64,000 bases of DNA. It comes from Ruminococcus callidus ATCC 27760. Its GTDB lineage: Bacteria > Bacillota > Clostridia > Oscillospirales > Ruminococcaceae. Location: NCBI RefSeq assembly GCF_000468015.1, contig NZ_KI260389.1, forward strand, positions 15,699 through 79,698, read 5' to 3'. Below, piece by piece: positions 1 through 19,553 of the stretch (the stretch's first letter is position 1; the number at the start of each line of letters is the position of its first letter). Both the position numbers and the translations under genes were made by a program. The notes beneath the pieces were generated by a model. It saw only the letters and a list, made by a program, of their open reading frames with translations. It made no database searches and was not told the origin of the DNA.

Positions 1-56
1 CGAACCAGCGGAATGACGGAGTCAAAGTCCGTTGTCTTACCACTTGACTATAGTCC
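1..56 (-). tRNA. tRNA-Gln (anticodon TTG), 3' end cut by window edge
   Basis: The minus strand reads a 7-nt acceptor 5' strand GGACTAT, a D arm, an anticodon stem ACGGA/TCCGT and the loop CTTTGAC, which places anticodon TTG. The T arm begins but the window ends inside it. A complete second Gln(TTG) tRNA lies at 1774-1849, so the cluster has two isoacceptors with different stems. Confidence 0.85.
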
Positions 57-61
57 AATCT

Positions 62-660
62 CAATATCTCAACAATCAAATACTGTATTGTGTATATGCA
101 ACCGACCTTCGCCATACCAACTGTTTTACCGCACACATATTCATCCACTAGGGAGATAAGTCTGAGCGTTTGGGAGCTACCCTTAGCTTCTTATCCCAGC
201 ACATGCCAAATCCTATGCAAGTCTGGTTACTTGCAACTTTCACTCAGACCATTCAGAAAATTTTATTTCTTATAATTCCTTGCACATTGAGCTACTCGAA
301 CCAGAATCTCGTCTTATACCCTAGTTTCCTAGGTTCAGTGCAAGTGAAACTGTGTTTTGATATTTCCTAGGTTTGCATAAGTAATCAGCTTACACCTAAC
401 TAGGATTCCACTTGTAGTGTTTTACAAGTATCTATTTCCACAGCGACAAGATTCCGTGATTTTGTGTACAGTAATGTCAGCACATTTGTCACCAAGGGAC
501 TGTTTTCAATCCTCAACAATATGTCATCATACTGCCGATTATAGCAACGAGCTTATCAGTTAATATGCTATCTACTTGATTTACAGACAAATTCTCAGCA
601 AGTTGGTTAAACTATCTGCACTGAGTTGCTACATACACACAATACAATATTCGATTGTCA
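62..660 (-). ncRNA. Giant structured RNA, ROOL/GOLLD-like, about 600 nt
   Basis: No convincing ORF lies here, yet on the minus strand the two ends pair. Bases 657-625 match 102-73 in 30 pairs with three G-U wobbles and one 3-nt bulge, so the mismatches between the arms are all transitions that keep pairing. Internal helices are also clear: a GAAA tetraloop on CCTAG/CTAGG (about 320-333), CTTGCAC/GTGCAAG around it, TGCAAGT/ACTTGCA with a 6-nt loop, GTCTGAGTG/CGCTCAGAC, a nested TGGGA/TCCCA plus AGCTA/TAGCT, and ACTTGTA/TACAAGT. Known families of this size that sit beside tRNAs in Firmicutes phages are ROOL and GOLLD. Family membership is inference; the closed, multi-helix architecture is seen directly. 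It lies between tRNA-Ser and tRNA-Gln, probably in one transcript with both. Confidence 0.75.
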
Positions 661-670
661 AAATACTGTG

Positions 671-757
671 TGGCACAAGGTCAGGGACTCGAACCCTGAA
701 TCCGTTACCGGACAACGGTTTTCAAGACCGCTCGACTACCAATTATCACAACCTTGC
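671..757 (-). tRNA. tRNA-Ser (anticodon TGA)
   Basis: The acceptor GCAAGGT/ACCTTGT pairs over 7 bp. The anticodon loop is CTTGAAA on the stem GCGGT/ACCGT, there is a long class II variable arm, the T loop is TTCGAGT and CCA is encoded. It shares its D region, anticodon loop and T arm with the second Ser(TGA) tRNA at 2111-2197, but the acceptor and variable arms differ. Confidence 0.93.
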
Positions 758-812
758 GTATTTAGAACTCTGATTCAGAATCGAACTGAATTGACTGCTA
801 ACCTGCTCAGAG

Positions 813-842
813 TATATATTGAGAATTACCATTGTATGTCAA
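813..842 (-). promoter_or_regulatory. Sigma-A-like promoter for the left tRNA/ncRNA unit
   Basis: The minus strand has TTGACA (842-837), an 18-bp spacer and TATATA (818-813). It lies 56 bp upstream of tRNA-Ser, with the large RNA and tRNA-Gln beyond. A 13-bp inverted repeat (TATTGAGAATTAC and its complement, about 817-877) overlaps it and could be an operator or hairpin. Confidence 0.5.
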
Positions 843-948
843 GCAAGACGGTTATGGTTGTAATTCTCAATATACGAAAGGATTTCACCATGAAATTGTA
901 CAATCAAGCACAATCACACAAGTGGTTTTGCAGGTGGGCAAGACCTGC

Positions 949-1025
949 TGGTGGGATATATAGGACTTGAACCTATAACCATCCGGTTATGAGCCGGGAG
1001 CTCTGACCAATTGAGCTAATATCCC
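949..1025 (-). tRNA. tRNA with anticodon CAT (Met, or Ile2 if lysidine-modified)
   Basis: The acceptor GGGATAT/ATATCCC pairs over 7 bp. The D arm is AGCTC...GAGC, the anticodon loop is CTCATAA, the T loop is TTCAAGT, and A73 plus CCA are encoded. A CAT anticodon can be elongator Met or lysidine-modified Ile. There is no initiator hallmark of three G-C pairs in the anticodon stem and a mispaired position 1-72. Confidence 0.92.
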
Positions 1026-1492
1026 TTATGCATGCCTTTATCGTGGCATGCTATGGAGTATACCATCTAGTACAATATGGTTTTCTTCAAACGTCCAACT
1101 TTCATGGATGGATCTGTACAATCCAGCGTCTATCCGATTCGTAATGATCCCGATATATAGATCATCCAAACCAAGATATTAGTTGATAGATTACGTATAC
1201 GCAATTGTGTAAGGTCTCACCCTAACCTCTACCTTACCTATCAGAGTCCATTGCACCACTACTGATTCCCAATTACCCATTAGAACTTTGTTCTAACCGC
1301 TTGGATTTTAGCTGTTATTTAGATACTACATACTTAATTAAAACATCACGGCATACATCATTTCATTCGTTTCTTCTGTCATTTGTTTCAATTTATATGG
1401 CATATATAGCATCCATGCTGCCCTGTATTGTGTAGGCTTACTACAAGGTACCCAGACTTCGGCAATAGAGCATGATCTCAAACCTACGCTCA
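1026..1492 (-). other. 467-bp gap between tRNAs without a supported gene
   Basis: No ORF here has a credible start and ribosome-binding site. On the minus strand there are several hairpins: GCATGCC/GGCATGC with an 8-nt loop (about 1027-1050), TTAGAAC/GTTCTAA with a 3-nt loop (about 1280-1296), TGTAG/CTACA with a 5-nt loop (about 1430-1445), and GATGATC with its near-complement around 1145-1165. Unlike 62-660, I see no helix that closes the two ends. It may be another structured RNA or tRNA-cluster debris. Confidence 0.35.
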
Positions 1493-1568
1493 TGGTGTGA
1501 CTTATGGGACTTGAACCCATGACTCTCGCATTAAAAGTGTGATACTCTACCAACTGAGTTAAAGCCAC
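1493..1568 (-). tRNA. tRNA-Lys (anticodon TTT)
   Basis: The acceptor GTGGCTT/AAGTCAC pairs with one G-U. The D arm is ACTC...GAGT, the anticodon loop is CTTTTAA, the T stem is ATGGG/CCCAT, and A73 and CCA are encoded. The anticodon stem has one A-C mismatch. Confidence 0.9.
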
Positions 1569-1615
1569 AAATTATTCATATTAAATGAATAATAATAGAT
1601 ACATTAAGTATCTAA

Positions 1616-1693
1616 TGGTCCGGATGACAGGACTCGAACCTGCGGCATCTTGTTCCCAAAACAAGCATTCTAACCAAACTGAATTACATCCGG
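1616..1693 (-). tRNA. tRNA-Pro (anticodon TGG)
   Basis: The acceptor CCGGATG/CATCCGG is perfect. The anticodon arm is CTTGT/ACAAG with loop TTTGGGA, the T loop is TTCGAGT, and A73 and CCA are encoded. Confidence 0.93.
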
Positions 1694-1773
1694 ATTTAAG
1701 TAATAACTAACCACTTTTATTACTAGTTATAGCCCATATAAACCATACTTCTAAATTTCTATAACTTCCCAAA

Positions 1774-1849
1774 TGGTTGAGGTAGCTGGATTCGAACCAA
1801 CGGAATGGCAGGATCAAAACCTGCTGGCTTACCACTTGCCGATACCTCA
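1774..1849 (-). tRNA. tRNA-Gln (anticodon TTG)
   Basis: The acceptor TGAGGTA/TACCTCA is perfect. The anticodon stem GCAGG/CCTGC carries the loop TTTTGAT, the T loop is TTCGAAT, and CCA is encoded. It is the complete counterpart of the truncated Gln tRNA at the left edge. Confidence 0.93.
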
Positions 1850-1895
1850 ATATAATAAAGATAAGACTTATGAACTAAGAATTTCTTATCTTTAA

Positions 1896-1971
1896 TGGCT
1901 CTTCCAATTGGACTCGAACCAATGACCGTGCGGTTAACAGCCGCATGCTCTACCGACTGAGCTATGGAAGA
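1896..1971 (-). tRNA. tRNA-Asn (anticodon GTT)
   Basis: The acceptor TCTTCCA/TGGAAGA is perfect. The D arm is AGCTC...GAGC, the anticodon stem TGCGG/CCGCA carries the loop CTGTTAA, the T loop is TTCGAGT, and G73 and CCA are encoded. Confidence 0.95.
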
Positions 1972-2110
1972 TTATATTTGAGAATTTAGTTAAAACAGCT
2001 AAACGACATGAACGTATTCTCATATAGCCATTTTATCATTGATTAAATTAATAAACAATGATAGGAATTTCAACCAATAACAAATAGTTTGAAAGGATGC
2101 CATCAATGGC

Positions 2111-2197
2111 TGGCGGAGAGCCAGGGACTCGAACCCTGAATTCATTTCTGAACAATGGTTTTCAAGACCATCTGACTACCAATTATCACAACTCTCC
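2111..2197 (-). tRNA. tRNA-Ser (anticodon TGA), second copy
   Basis: The acceptor is GGAGAGT/GCTCTCC, paired apart from a T-G wobble at the inner pair. The anticodon stem ATGGT/ACCAT carries the loop CTTGAAA. A long variable arm TTCAG/TGAA and an encoded CCA follow. The D and T arms match the Ser tRNA at 671-757. Confidence 0.93.
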
Positions 2198-2304
2198 ATA
2201 CTACCTTGAGTATATTTTAATCAGTCTAAAAGACTTGCCTTCATTAATCATAAAACAGAGAATTTCTTACAGAAGAAGTAACTGATTAATCTGCATCAAG
2301 GTTT

Positions 2305-2379
2305 TGGAGCACCATAAGAGAATCGAACTCTCATTCCAAGATTGGAAGTCTTGTGTATTATCCATTATACGAATGGTGC
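2305..2379 (-). tRNA. tRNA-Gly (anticodon TCC)
   Basis: The acceptor GCACCAT/ATGGTGC is perfect. The anticodon stem CAAGA/TCTTG carries the loop CTTCCAA, the T loop is TTCGATT, and T73 and CCA are encoded. Confidence 0.93.
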
Positions 2380-2388
2380 TTATATTCA

Positions 2389-2447
2389 CTAGATAAGATC
2401 TACAAAATCTATTCTGCAGCATAGATTCGATTATCAATCTTATCTAG
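2389..2447. repeat. 11-bp inverted repeat with nested hairpin
   Basis: CTAGATAAGAT at 2389-2399 is complementary to ATCTTATCTAG at 2437-2447, with a nested ATCTA/TAGAT pair inside. It follows tRNA-Gly in the 225-bp gap before the defective tRNA pair. There is no U-run, so an RNA processing hairpin is more likely than a terminator. Confidence 0.5.
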
Positions 2448-2604
2448 AGCCAAGTTTTCTTGGGCGAGATGAACTTGGTAACTCAGGTATTAATCGAAAT
2501 TCGAATTCAATATACATTTACTAATTCATTCCTTTCTACAGATTTCACAATAAACTCGTTAAAGAAATTTTATTGACTCCTTAATTTCTAAAAGAATTTA
2601 TTAA

Positions 2605-2751
2605 TGGTGCAGACAACAGGATTCGAACCTGCACTCTTTCAGGCTTGATGGTGCTTTACCGTTAAGCTACATGTGATTAACATCATGATATGGTTTCGAT
2701 CCATATATCTTCCTGTCGGACCTGTGCTTTCACCCGTTAAGCTATGTCCGC
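2605..2751 (-). pseudogene. Two abutting degenerate tRNA-like copies
   Basis: The 147 nt equal two tRNA lengths. The first copy (2751 to about 2678) has a good acceptor 5' strand GCGGACA and D arm (AGCTTAACGG), but its 3' end does not pair with it. The second (about 2677-2605) has D and T arms (T loop TTCGAAT), an acceptor 3' strand TGTCTGC and CCA, but no matching 5' strand. The outer strands GCGGACA and TGTCTGC do pair with each other (7 bp, one G-U). Neither copy has a regular five-pair anticodon stem. I read this as a recombined tandem tRNA; a functional composite cannot be excluded. Confidence 0.55.
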
Positions 2752-2848
2752 ATATGACTACTTTTCGTCGTAGTCCCAACGGAAAGTTTTCTGTCGTTTT
2801 GTTATAGTCTTTCAATAACGTAAACAAGGTACTTTCAATCTACCTAAA

Positions 2849-2936
2849 TGGTGAGTGAAGTAGGAATCGAACCTACGATGTTTCTAATGTAACAGATTTA
2901 CAGTCTGCCGACTTCGCCAACTGGTCACATTCACCC
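2849..2936 (-). tRNA. tRNA-Tyr (anticodon GTA)
   Basis: The acceptor GGGTGAA/TTCACTC pairs with one G-U. The anticodon loop CTGTAAA sits on GCAGA/TCTGT, there is a long class II variable arm as in bacterial Tyr tRNAs, the T loop is TTCGATT, and A73 and CCA are encoded. Confidence 0.94.
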
Positions 2937-2939
2937 ATT

Positions 2940-3025
2940 TGGTGCTACTAGCCAGACTCGAACTGGCACGGGTTGCCCCATCGGTTTTTAAGACCGAAGC
3001 GTGCTGCCTATTTCGCCATAGTAGC
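2940..3025 (-). tRNA. tRNA-Leu (anticodon TAA)
   Basis: The acceptor GCTACTA/TAGTAGC is perfect. The anticodon loop CTTAAAA sits on TCGGT/ACCGA, the long variable arm contains GGGG...CCC, the T loop is TTCGAGT, and A73 and CCA are encoded. It begins 3 nt upstream of tRNA-Tyr, as if co-processed. Confidence 0.94.
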
Positions 3026-3057
3026 ATTTGCAATTTCTTATTTTCTGCTCTACTATA

Positions 3058-3065
3058 TATAACGA
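3058..3065 (-). promoter_or_regulatory. TATAACGA-type box upstream of the tRNA cluster
   Basis: The minus strand reads CACTCGTTATATATAG about 30 nt upstream of tRNA-Leu and just after the sigma-factor stop codon. It matches the recurring box found at 3907, 19546, 23206, 28537 and 39641. A promoter -10 role for the tRNA operon is inference. Confidence 0.4.
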
Positions 3066-3102
3066 GTGGAAAAACTTAAATTGCACTTGATGATTCAGAA
3101 GT

Positions 3103-3693
3103 TCATTCAATGAACTCTCTAAATTCTGAATTGTACTTATCAATTATGCGTGCTACAGTAGATCGGCATACCTGAAACTTTGTTGAAATCTGTTTCTGTG
3201 TCACCTTGTCTCCGTTTGCAACTGCATAATAATAAACTCTCATGATTTCTCTATCTCGTCTATTTCTAATAGTACGTAGAAACGTATCGATGAGATCCTT
3301 AGTTAATTTCCTGTAGTCATCTGGGTCTGATTCAATCTTTTCAATAAGTGTAATTGAATCAGATGTACCGCCGATTGTCCTATCAAGTGAGTCTACATTT
3401 GATATTAGGTTAATTAGCTTTTCATTGTTCGACAAAAATACTGTTCTTGGTATTCGTATTAAGTTACATTTATCTCTTGCATACTGACGCATATATCCAC
3501 TTATGTAATGTGTAGCATACGTAGAAAACGCAATTCCCTTGGATTCATCATATTGTAGAGCGGCTTTCCAAAGTGCCAGCATTCCTTGCTGCATGATATC
3601 TTCTGTATCTGATATGCTACGGTGCTTTATGTACTTATTATAGCAGAATTTTACGAGATTCTGATTATCTTGAAATAGTTGATTTGGTGTCAT
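3103..3693 (-). CDS. Phage-encoded sigma-70 family RNA polymerase sigma factor
   Basis: At 196 aa it would redirect host RNA polymerase to phage promoters. Region 2 is visible at about residues 28-76: an acidic DTEDIMQQGMLALWKAA helix, then the FSTYA and YARDK segments typical of -10 recognition and core binding. A C-terminal helix-turn-helix at about 160-190 (VTQKQISTKF then STVARIIDKY) fits region 4. No region 1.1 is seen, as in small phage and sporulation sigma factors. The ATG has an AAGGATG ribosome-binding site. The gene reads out toward the tRNA cluster. Recurring TATAACGA-type boxes in the window are candidate target promoters (inference). Confidence 0.85.
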   Translation of the reverse strand: MTPNQLFQDNQNLVKFCYNKYIKHRSISDTEDIMQQGMLALWKAALQYDESKGIAFSTYATHYISGYMRQYARDKCNLIRIPRTVFLSNNEKLINLISNVDSLDRTIGGTSDSITLIEKIESDPDDYRKLTKDLIDTFLRTIRNRRDREIMRVYYYAVANGDKVTQKQISTKFQVCRSTVARIIDKYNSEFREFIE

Positions 3694-3719
3694 ATAAGCA
3701 CATCCTTACGTATCAGACT

Positions 3720-3790
3720 TGGTGCCGAAAGCTGGATTTGAACCAACAACATCCCATTACGGGTGCTTTATCCAGTTAAGCTATTTCGAC
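3720..3790 (-). tRNA. tRNA-like gene with a shortened anticodon arm
   Basis: The acceptor GTCGAAA/TTTCGGC (7 bp, one G-U), D arm AGCTTAACTGG..AAGC, T arm GTTGG/CCAGC with loop TTCAAAT, A73 and CCA are all present. Only 16 nt separate the D arm and T stem, where 21-22 are usual. They fold only as CCC/GGG with a 5-nt loop GTAAT, so no normal anticodon can be assigned. It is either a defective tRNA or a tRNA-shaped decoy or processing element. Confidence 0.6.
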
Positions 3791-3906
3791 TGGTCTACCG
3801 CCAACCCACAGACGGTAGTACTCTCCTCATTGGAGATTCCCTACACACATTTAACATCGAAATTACGATGTTGGATGAATCAGTGTCGTTTTCATCCTCT
3901 ATTATA

Positions 3907-3914
3907 TATAACGA
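3907..3914 (-). promoter_or_regulatory. TATAACGA-type box between 3927 gene and tRNA-like gene
   Basis: The minus strand reads TTGACAATCATCGTTATATATAAT. TTGACA and TATAAT are only 12 bp apart, too close for a sigma-A promoter, whereas CGTTATATATAAT matches the phage box. The leader to the tRNA-like gene contains two hairpins (CATCG/CGATG and CTACCG/CGGTAG). It could drive the tRNA-like gene and the sigma gene. Confidence 0.4.
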
Positions 3915-3926
3915 TGATTGTCAAGT

Positions 3927-4232
3927 TTAGTTTGACACACGTCTGATTTTTACCTTGACTGCATTACTATAAGATCTGGAATCCTGCTCTTCTGAAATTA
4001 TACTACGAATTTCATGTAATTCCCGATACAGAGCATCTAGTGTTGGCTGAAACTGTACTTTGAGAGCATCCAGCTTTTCATCGTATTGAGTTTCAATTCT
4101 ATCTATAAGTGCTAGCAAATCTTTTTCGTACTCTTTGTTAGCAGCAGCATCTGCCAGTTCTGCTTCTTCTCTTGTTTCAAAGAATTTATCAATGATATTA
4201 TCAGATTTCCAAAGTCGAACTTCTTTAATCAT
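3927..4232 (-). CDS. Small coiled-coil protein of unknown function
   Basis: 101 aa. An N-terminal beta-like segment (KEVRLWKSDNIIDKFF) is followed by a long charged helix from about residue 20 to 80, rich in Glu, Asp and Leu heptads, and a basic C-terminus. I recognise no family. The ATG has a weak AGGTATAATA leader. It lies 18 bp downstream of the S1-domain gene and is probably its co-transcribed partner. Confidence 0.7.
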   Translation of the reverse strand: MIKEVRLWKSDNIIDKFFETREEAELADAAANKEYEKDLLALIDRIETQYDEKLDALKVQFQPTLDALYRELHEIRSIISEEQDSRSYSNAVKVKIRRVSN

Positions 4233-4250
4233 TATTATACCTACTTTCTG

Positions 4251-4619
4251 TCATCGTCTGCGACGTTTCATTCTTGAATCGGCACTTTTCTGTTTATCTG
4301 AAAATGCGTTTTGAGCTGCTTTTATCATTTTGTCTAAGTCTGACATTGTTTTTGACTGTGACTTCTGACGCGATGACATCGGATTTATAGTTTTCGGCAG
4401 CATCATAAGTTCCAGTTTATTTAGCTTTGTATTCATCACACACTTAGCTTTATATGTCGTTCCGATTGAAACCACATCTTCAACTGCTCGAACATATCCG
4501 CTGGACAATTTTGAAATATGGATAAACTGCGTTTCATTCTCTCCTTCTACGGATACAATTGCACCCTTATCCATGATCTTTGCAACTGTTACATTGTAGC
4601 AGTTTCCTAATTTAAGCAT
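4251..4619 (-). CDS. S1 RNA-binding domain protein
   Basis: 122 aa. Residues 3-72 form an S1/OB fold: GNCYNVTVAKIMDKGAIVSV, FIHISKLSSGYVR and the IGTTYKAKC strand match the usual VGxxxxGxVxxIxxxGAxVxL plus GLVHISEI pattern. A basic tail rich in Ser, Lys and Arg (ending RMKRRRR) follows. Such short S1 proteins bind mRNA or ribosomes (compare host general stress protein 13). Its start overlaps the end of the SbcC-like gene and a GGAGGG site lies inside that gene, so the two are translationally coupled. Confidence 0.8.
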   Translation of the reverse strand: MLKLGNCYNVTVAKIMDKGAIVSVEGENETQFIHISKLSSGYVRAVEDVVSIGTTYKAKCVMNTKLNKLELMMLPKTINPMSSRQKSQSKTMSDLDKMIKAAQNAFSDKQKSADSRMKRRRR

Positions 4620-6448: not shown

Positions 6449-7076
6449 CATTTACCTCCTGATCTGTAACCAATTCAAACCGATATCGCTGTTTTATATC
6501 TGGGTACCTATCGTGATCCACCTCTGACAGAAACATATCAAGAGGTCTTGCATATGTACCGCTCTCACAGTTATATATAACGAGCGGTTCTGATGATTCA
6601 GAATGATTTGCTACAGTGATAATCTTAACAAGACCGCCTTTGAAGTGTCTCCATGTCTGACCTGAGCATACTTTTCGAGCCATACGCTTTAGTGTATCAA
6701 TCATAAATTGTAATCCTTCGATTAAATCATACAGTTCAGAATCTCCACCAAACTGAATGGATACACCAGTATAATCATCTTGAAAAGCTCGAAGTAAGTT
6801 AGCTACGTTAGTTTCAGATACCACATATTCCCCTAGGTCTTTATCAAATATGCCTGACGCTCTAATCAGCTGTGATAGTCTAGCAGGATGCAGTGTTGGT
6901 ACGATTCGCATACCTGTGCTTCCATCATCATCTAACTCTATTACAGTTCTACACCCATGTCCGGAATCTCCGCCTCTTGGACCGGTTGTACCAGCTACAA
7001 AATACATAATTCCTGCACCTTGGATTTCCTCCTCTTCTATAGGTACCTTGATGTCATCTATATATTTATGACTCAT
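6438..7076 (-). CDS. Protein with C-terminal DUF1653-like domain
   Basis: 212 aa. The C-terminal third (about 140-195) matches the DUF1653 pattern: HFKGG..KIITVANHSES.EPLVIYNCE..TYARPLDMFLSEV. The N-terminal part is novel to me, with a Gly-rich stretch (GTTGPRGGDSGHGC) and a predicted regulatory-like middle. Domain function is unknown; DUF1653 occurs in many phages as a stand-alone protein. It overlaps the SbcC-like start by 14 nt. A TATAACGA-type box lies inside the gene at 6576-6583. Confidence 0.7.
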   Translation of the reverse strand: MSHKYIDDIKVPIEEEEIQGAGIMYFVAGTTGPRGGDSGHGCRTVIELDDDGSTGMRIVPTLHPARLSQLIRASGIFDKDLGEYVVSETNVANLLRAFQDDYTGVSIQFGGDSELYDLIEGLQFMIDTLKRMARKVCSGQTWRHFKGGLVKIITVANHSESSEPLVIYNCESGTYARPLDMFLSEVDHDRYPDIKQRYRFELVTDQEVNDED

Positions 7077-10604: not shown

Positions 10605-10803
10605 TGGAATCACCTCCGTCTATATTATATAACGATGAAAATTTTTGAGGCTCTACATAATTTCCAGTTACTATAGAGCTTTGATCTTCCACAGCATTAC
10701 CTGAATGACGACGTTTTAGCCACGCTTCTTCCTCTTCAGGCATATAGCCTTCTGCTTTGATAAACTTACTCATTTCAAAAGCTTGATAATCATTCCACCA
10801 CAT
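10597..10803 (-). CDS. Small acidic protein of unknown function
   Basis: 68 aa, containing MPEEEEAWLKRR near the middle. The ATG follows AAAGGATGATGTGAT. It overlaps the next gene by 8 nt. Not recognised. A TATAACGA box occurs in its last codons (10628-10635). Confidence 0.6.
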   Translation of the reverse strand: MWWNDYQAFEMSKFIKAEGYMPEEEEAWLKRRHSGNAVEDQSSIVTGNYVEPQKFSSLYNIDGGDSSD

Positions 10804-14894: not shown

Positions 14895-15539
14895 TCAGAT
14901 ATATTCCTCGCAAATTCTCACAATATGCTCGCATAATTCAACTGGGATTACAGAGCGTTCTTTGCTTCCTCTTAGTCCTTGTGTTCCAGTTTTTGAACCT
15001 CGTGGAGCAGGTACATGACAAGGATCACCATTTTTACACATAGGCTTAAATCGGGGATTAGGATGATTTGTCCAAATATCAGTATGTTTCATCCGTGTAT
15101 CACCATACTGACAGTATGTAACTGTGTACCTTGGAATCCCATGCATCCATGTCATTTTACGCATACCACCTCTAGGATTCTCAATGAAATAGAACTTAGG
15201 ATTTAATTCACGAATTAGTTTTATGACATTCTGATCTACAGCGTCACAGAATTTTGCATAATCACTTACTGCGTCAAGATTCCCAGTTTTTGCATTTTTT
15301 CGACGATGATGACTAATTGCTGCGATAGAAAATGTAGTACAATCTGGACTTGCCCAGATCACATCTGGTGTTCCATTACAAAGTAAAATAATATCATCCT
15401 TTGTCAACTTCCCAATATCAGCATATAAGTTGATATTTTTAAAGTTTTTATCCCACTCAACTGAGTATACTTTATGTCCCGATTTCTCAAATGCTTTCCC
15501 GATTGATCGTGTTCCGGCAAATAACTCTAGCACTTTCAT
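14895..15539 (-). CDS. C5 cytosine DNA methyltransferase
   Basis: 214 aa, shorter than full-length enzymes (usually over 300 aa). Motif I is LELFAGTRSIGKAFE, motif IV is ASPDCTTFS (the catalytic Cys is in PDC where PPC is usual) and motif VI is FIENPRGG. The target-recognition region is minimal, and the C-terminal motif IX/X region is reduced to RGSKERSVIPVELCEHIV. It would methylate cytosine in phage DNA and is a second methylase distinct from the one at 7098-7994. Start with AGGAGTG. Confidence 0.87.
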   Translation of the reverse strand: MKVLELFAGTRSIGKAFEKSGHKVYSVEWDKNFKNINLYADIGKLTKDDIILLCNGTPDVIWASPDCTTFSIAAISHHRRKNAKTGNLDAVSDYAKFCDAVDQNVIKLIRELNPKFYFIENPRGGMRKMTWMHGIPRYTVTYCQYGDTRMKHTDIWTNHPNPRFKPMCKNGDPCHVPAPRGSKTGTQGLRGSKERSVIPVELCEHIVRICEEYI

Positions 15540-15593
15540 AATTCACATCACTCCTAAAATAGCTTCTTCTGAGCAGGTTGTCCATGCTCTTTT

Positions 15594-19504: not shown

Positions 19505-19553
19505 TAAAAAGATAGTAGGAATGACTTTGAATCATCCCTACTATCTATAACGA
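19505..19553 (-). terminator. TATAACGA box followed by hairpin and U-run in a leader
   Basis: The minus strand has CAATCGTTATA (box complement at 19546-19553), then GATAGTAGGGATGA/TCATTCCTACTATC and TTTTT, then GGAGG of the 19169 gene. A second hairpin (AACTTGTA/TACAAGTT) lies further upstream at about 19569-19606. The hairpin with U-run should terminate or attenuate just before the start codon. Confidence 0.7.

Follow-up and report, generated by a model that had tools for sequence, protein, structure and literature searches.

The question raised by this locus is which giant RNA is encoded inside the tRNA cluster of a phage, and by what route such an RNA could acquire its ends. The window analyzed here, a stretch of 64,000 nucleotides, comprises bases 15,699-79,698 of a 144,696-bp contig from a bacterial assembly (3.1 Mb in 226 contigs). 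The contig has matches to sigma factor, SbcC-like, helicase, capsid, head protease, baseplate, tape-measure-like and endolysin-like proteins; these mark it as a large tailed phage whose tail is probably contractile, and the bacterium of the assembly is its putative host. A minus-strand tRNA array takes up the window's initial 3.8 kb and runs about 1.1 kb past its edge. Within this array, an RNA of about 600 nt was described in an earlier note, and its position between two same-strand tRNAs (58-670) was confirmed: tRNA-Ser (UGA) lies directly upstream (671-757, minus strand) and tRNA-Gln, of which the window edge leaves the 5' part, lies directly downstream (1-57, minus strand), while the rest of the cluster, all on the same strand, occupies 949-3790.

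A scan with all Rfam models identified the minus strand of 84-649 as ROOL (RF03087) with 285.1 bits and an E-value of 2.5e-64, the gathering score being 99.1 bits, and the match spans positions 1-574 of the 574 in the model. Including the full closing helix, the ROOL RNA extends over 62-668 (minus strand), and the processed transcript would cover approximately 58-670. ROOL or GOLLD had been the leading guess of the earlier note, and the covariance-model searches that it proposed (ROOL, GOLLD, OLE) returned a significant match to ROOL only; when 1-4300 was scanned permissively, with matches accepted up to E = 5, neither GOLLD nor OLE appeared. GOLLD shares the size range and the tRNA location, but the ROOL match is full-length, which rules out the new class that had been left open, and the covariance-model result leads us to reject GOLLD, OLE or any new giant-RNA class with practically no reservation. 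The location in a phage near tRNAs, seen from tRNA detection and the protein matches of the contig, is likewise a feature of ROOL. The element is non-coding, as had been proposed: its ORFs of at least 30 aa reach at most 66 aa, none is conserved, and many indels among the aligned relatives are not multiples of three. It is the single ROOL copy in the whole assembly, and this assembly is the only one with a ROOL among 299 genomes of the phylum; therefore, no claim on host range is made.

For the minus strand of 58-670, folding gives -207.5 kcal/mol (z = -11.1, 20 dinucleotide shuffles). For comparison, IMG/VR records supplied 28 ROOLs and related genomes another two, giving 31 sequences with the window copy (29 distinct); 23 of the 50 records from the first pattern scan were without a ROOL match and were dropped. 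The sequences were aligned with MAFFT on sequence alone (alignment A1) and the Rfam structure was projected from the window. On this alignment, 65.6% of the cells were paired vs. 51.1% after shuffling and at most 48.8% when the structure was slid, and both-side changes were found at 122 of the 150 model pairs, with a covariation score of 0.414 vs. 0.185 for shuffled and at most 0.22 for slid controls. The predicted secondary structure of the family is thus supported by compensatory changes across the 31 ROOLs. The hairpin with a GAAA tetraloop that had been noticed before is present at 333-320 (CCUAG-GAAA-CUAGG, minus strand), and its pairs covary (helix 24). It might be argued that the window holds a decayed ROOL, or a plain DNA inverted repeat without an RNA role, since this copy has non-canonical combinations at 24 of the 150 pairs projected from Rfam and some family helices are weak in it. 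However, its MFE fold retains 98 family pairs, the conserved motifs UUCUGAAUG, GUGAAAGUU and GCUCAGACUUAUC are intact and all 41 pairs of the closing helix form without a break, and we consider this explanation very improbable. The window element is a well-preserved new ROOL in the known family, with an extreme closing helix and otherwise typical.

The closing helix, P1, is formed by 668-628 (5' arm) and 62-102 (3' arm) of the minus strand, with 41 consecutive Watson-Crick or G-U pairs and no mismatch. The earlier note had seen a terminal helix of 30 bp, 657-625 with 102-73, whose arm differences all give G-U pairs. This pairing is real from 657/73 to 628/102, and every quoted pair is Watson-Crick or G-U; the end at 625 should read 628, and the length was understated, the 30 bp being the inner part of the 41. 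Among 61 distinct ROOLs, P1 of the window copy is the longest uninterrupted one (the next has 34 pairs, the median is 19). The notion that the pairing is maintained also held, as P1 is conserved in homologous loci with compensatory changes: the inner 19 pairs are retained in 77% of cells, with both-side changes at 18 of 19 (31 aligned ROOLs, 29 distinct), and the 35-pair helix tested reaches a covariation score of 0.453 vs. 0.210 for shuffled and 0.16-0.18 for slid controls. The outer 16 pairs tested are 50% paired and are not conserved family-wide, a long helix being found in some members only. In L053/L070, a similar ROOL that also lies behind a tRNA, the outer closing helix is long and of other sequence.

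Two internal parts deserve attention. The variable linker between AGUAGC and UUCUGAAUG (259-290, minus strand) has 32 nt and is the shortest of 33 measurable ROOLs (median 54); the same stretch is disordered and located inside the cage in the solved structures (PMC12286853). The P18 hairpin tip (172-182, minus strand) carries the loop UAGCU (175-179), one of two family forms: of about 79 distinct ROOLs, 27 carry GACG, almost all of the remainder carry U[AC]GCU or something close to it, and intermediates are very rare. This loop is probably L18, the site of the inter-subunit bridge B6, an assignment made by helix order rather than coordinates. L18 was reported as the symmetric kissing contact B6, and its conservation precluded covariance analysis (PMC12286853). 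A self-complementary dinucleotide, GC or CG, is present in both P18 loop forms, as one is in a GOLLD loop (PMC12286853). It is possible, as a lead, that the two forms represent covariation of a symmetric kissing loop; a two-state loop would offer a new handle on an inter-subunit contact where the structure paper found no covariation.

The position of the ROOL between its neighbors bears on its release. P1 is separated by 2 nt from the CCA of tRNA-Ser (671) and by 4 nt from the 5' end of tRNA-Gln (57), and by a sigma-70 scan, which is blind to phage-specific promoters, no promoter-like site was found on the minus strand of 62-757; nor was a minus-strand terminator-like site found in 1-4300. Within about 1.5 kb of 31 ROOLs, 123 tRNAs were found, every one in the orientation of its ROOL and 0 in the opposite one. 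Because the window ROOL belongs to those with a tRNA at the 5' side and has no promoter- or terminator-like site between the two tRNAs, we infer that it is probably co-transcribed with the tRNAs, released through tRNA processing or through RNase III cleavage of the stalk, and then assembled into a multimeric cage. The RNA would be transcribed as part of the tRNA array; 3'-end processing of tRNA-Ser would generate its 5' end and the RNase P cut before tRNA-Gln its 3' end, RNase III, cutting the 41-bp stalk, may aid the tRNA enzymes or take their place, the stalk would then clamp both ends, and the freed RNA, about 600 nt long, would assemble into a hollow homo-multimer, as solved ROOLs do (a hexamer in L. 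salivarius, otherwise an octamer). With a tRNA on either side and a 41-bp stalk, the window ROOL shows this sandwiched arrangement with unusual clarity. Many other ROOLs lie hundreds of bases from their nearest tRNA, and 21 of 61 have none of the 5' contexts described below; therefore, tRNA-coupled processing is not general.

The main rival to release by tRNA maturation is that RNase III, not the tRNA enzymes, cuts the closing helix, as in the processing stalks of 16S and 23S rRNA. RNase III needs less duplex than the 41 bp present here, which form the longest uninterrupted helix of the 61 ROOLs (against the median of 19), and the lack of family-wide conservation in the outer P1 pairs (50% paired) is expected of a processing stalk and not of a part of the cage. 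However, with tRNA ends 2 and 4 nt away, tRNA maturation alone already frees the ROOL, and RNase III sites are unreadable from sequence; we regard cleavage by RNase III instead of the tRNA enzymes as unlikely, though worth keeping in view. Still less probable, in our judgment, is a ROOL with its own phage-type promoter, for which the tRNA position would be merely a genomic habit. A strong sigma-70 promoter does stand just upstream in nine of 61 ROOLs, P1 is preceded by a TATAAT box and followed by a terminator-like hairpin in five of the first 31 loci, none of which has a tRNA directly upstream, and TTGACA occurs at 661-656 in the window ROOL. But the promoter class and the tRNA-adjacent class are without overlap, and TTGACA at 661-656 lies within the paired helix with no acceptable -10 box at 16-18 nt. 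Elsewhere in the window, a CGTTATAYATARTAGA-like motif was observed at 3049-3064, 3898-3913, 10619-10634 and 19537-19552 (minus strand), four matches where 0.28 would be expected, including two within the tRNA cluster; this motif is possibly a phage-specific promoter.

Co-transcription with the tRNAs followed by processing, the preferred reading for the window copy, was placed in a wider frame by a second IMG/VR scan, which yielded 61 distinct ROOL loci with a readable 5' side. The flanks of these relatives are the more interesting matter compared with the window copy. A near-consensus sigma-70 promoter precedes 9 of the 61 under strict rules and 13 under looser ones. A tRNA 3' end lies within 40 nt upstream of 17, or of 20 when T-loops of tRNAs that ARAGORN overlooked are included, and no near-consensus promoter was found among the 17; the window ROOL belongs to this tRNA class. 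An HDV-like ribozyme precedes the ROOL at six convincing loci and a doubtful seventh, L180. The strict promoter, tRNA and ribozyme calls co-occur in 0 cases vs. about 5 under independence, a difference weakened by small numbers and shared ancestry. As a separate observation, L074:2141-2223 (minus strand), just upstream of a ROOL, gives an 83-nt match to the tmRNA model, limited to the tRNA-like ends of that model.

The HDV-like element was found in L003/L076, L004/L079, L009/L077/L092, L075, L037/L080 and L175, six distinct loci. It is a double pseudoknot of about 66 nt directly 5' of the ROOL (on the minus strand in L003) that abuts the closing helix, and it shows the HDV topology, namely G1 with P1, P2, P3 and a J4/2 starting with the catalytic C. 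Its stems change in concert between loci, none of 1220 shuffled upstream controls scored as high, and no Rfam family was matched. The long-L3 variant was admitted after inspection of these very sequences, whereas L037 and L175 fit the canonical 7-nt L3; the control at the catalytic position is weak because a T there scores too, the elements holding UCGA in another register. After cleavage, this candidate ribozyme would remain joined to the ROOL, and its 5' end would carry a hydroxyl group. The same type of element is present at L100:6804-6862 and L167:1910-1968, exactly at the 3' end of tRNA-His (in L100 the tRNA ends at 6803 and the ribozyme begins at 6804) and upstream of tRNA-Leu; placement at a tRNA 3' end is the defining arrangement of the tRNA-associated theta ribozymes (PMC10879173). 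In the tRNA cluster of the window itself, no HDV-like ribozyme was found. It was also observed that L075 and L092 lie on a single phage contig of very large size (IMGVR_UViG_3300032167_000002, 402 kb) with two different ROOLs, both ribozyme-headed.

Taken together, the tRNA-, ribozyme- and promoter-headed ROOLs provide a concrete testable idea for how the RNA ends arise: ROOL may require an exact 5' end at the closing helix, for which phages use, interchangeably, a promoter, tRNA processing or a self-cleaving HDV-like ribozyme. We put this forward tentatively, as a proposal with slightly less than an even chance of being right. If it is true, some of the unassigned 'isolated' theta ribozymes gain a job, and the biogenesis of cage RNAs becomes directly testable.

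Several other elements were observed in the tRNA cluster. Candidates for a second giant RNA in 1026-1492, 2380-2848 and L060 14674-15043 were rejected, with fold z-scores of only -2.4, -3.3 and -3.1, respectively, and no Rfam family. An element of about 100 nt is repeated directly before a tRNA (window 2744-2846 and L060:14666-14767, both minus strand), and two hairpins within it differ by compensatory changes between copies (GUUAU/AUAAC vs. GCUAU/AUAGC in hairpin 1, GACUAC/GUAGUC vs. GACUAU/AUAGUC in hairpin 2); it has no Rfam match and no relatives were found, a search of viral contigs for the motif giving four chance-like matches. A second repeat of about 90 nt, of no known family, lies between tRNA-Gln and tRNA-Phe (L060:15204-15295 and 15467-15558, minus strand). 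The minus strand of window 2606-2752 is tRNA-like (32.8 bits); it has two stretches that resemble a D arm, lacks a clear anticodon arm and looks like a tRNA that has been rearranged or interrupted. Just past the left edge of the window, a run of N (L060:15598-15698) has an identical tRNA-Gln sequence on either side; therefore, the local tRNA order is uncertain there.

ROOL is among the few natural RNA-only cages. Solved ROOLs are hollow octamers about 280 angstrom wide with the linker inside, and a hexamer in L. salivarius (PMC12286853; PMC12191101), and by analogy the window ROOL is expected to assemble into a homo-multimeric cage. One ROOL rivals 16S rRNA in abundance, and two deletion mutants showed no major effect on growth or metabolism (PMC5643018). 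The embedding in a tRNA array fits, without showing, a function connected with translation or with the storage of RNA in infected cells; the foremost, if doubtful, suggestion is that the cage holds or shields RNA or translation components during infection.

Compared with known systems, the window RNA shares with ROOL (RF03087) the full-length model match, the conserved motifs, the variable linker and the location in a phage tRNA array, and differs in having the longest closing helix of the 61 compared (41 bp). Like GOLLD, it is a giant phage RNA near tRNAs, from a family that forms hollow cages (PMC12286853), but it has no sequence or structure match to GOLLD. The relatives' HDV-like double pseudoknot resembles the theta ribozymes, also in its placement at the tRNA-His 3' end in L100 and L167. 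The theta-ribozyme paper makes no mention of ROOL (PMC10879173), this comparison being made without the paper of Weinberg et al. (2017), in which ROOL was first described. Published theta ribozymes were characterized through their association with tRNAs or as isolated elements without an assigned role (PMC10879173), whereas the candidate ribozymes at the six loci head a ROOL.
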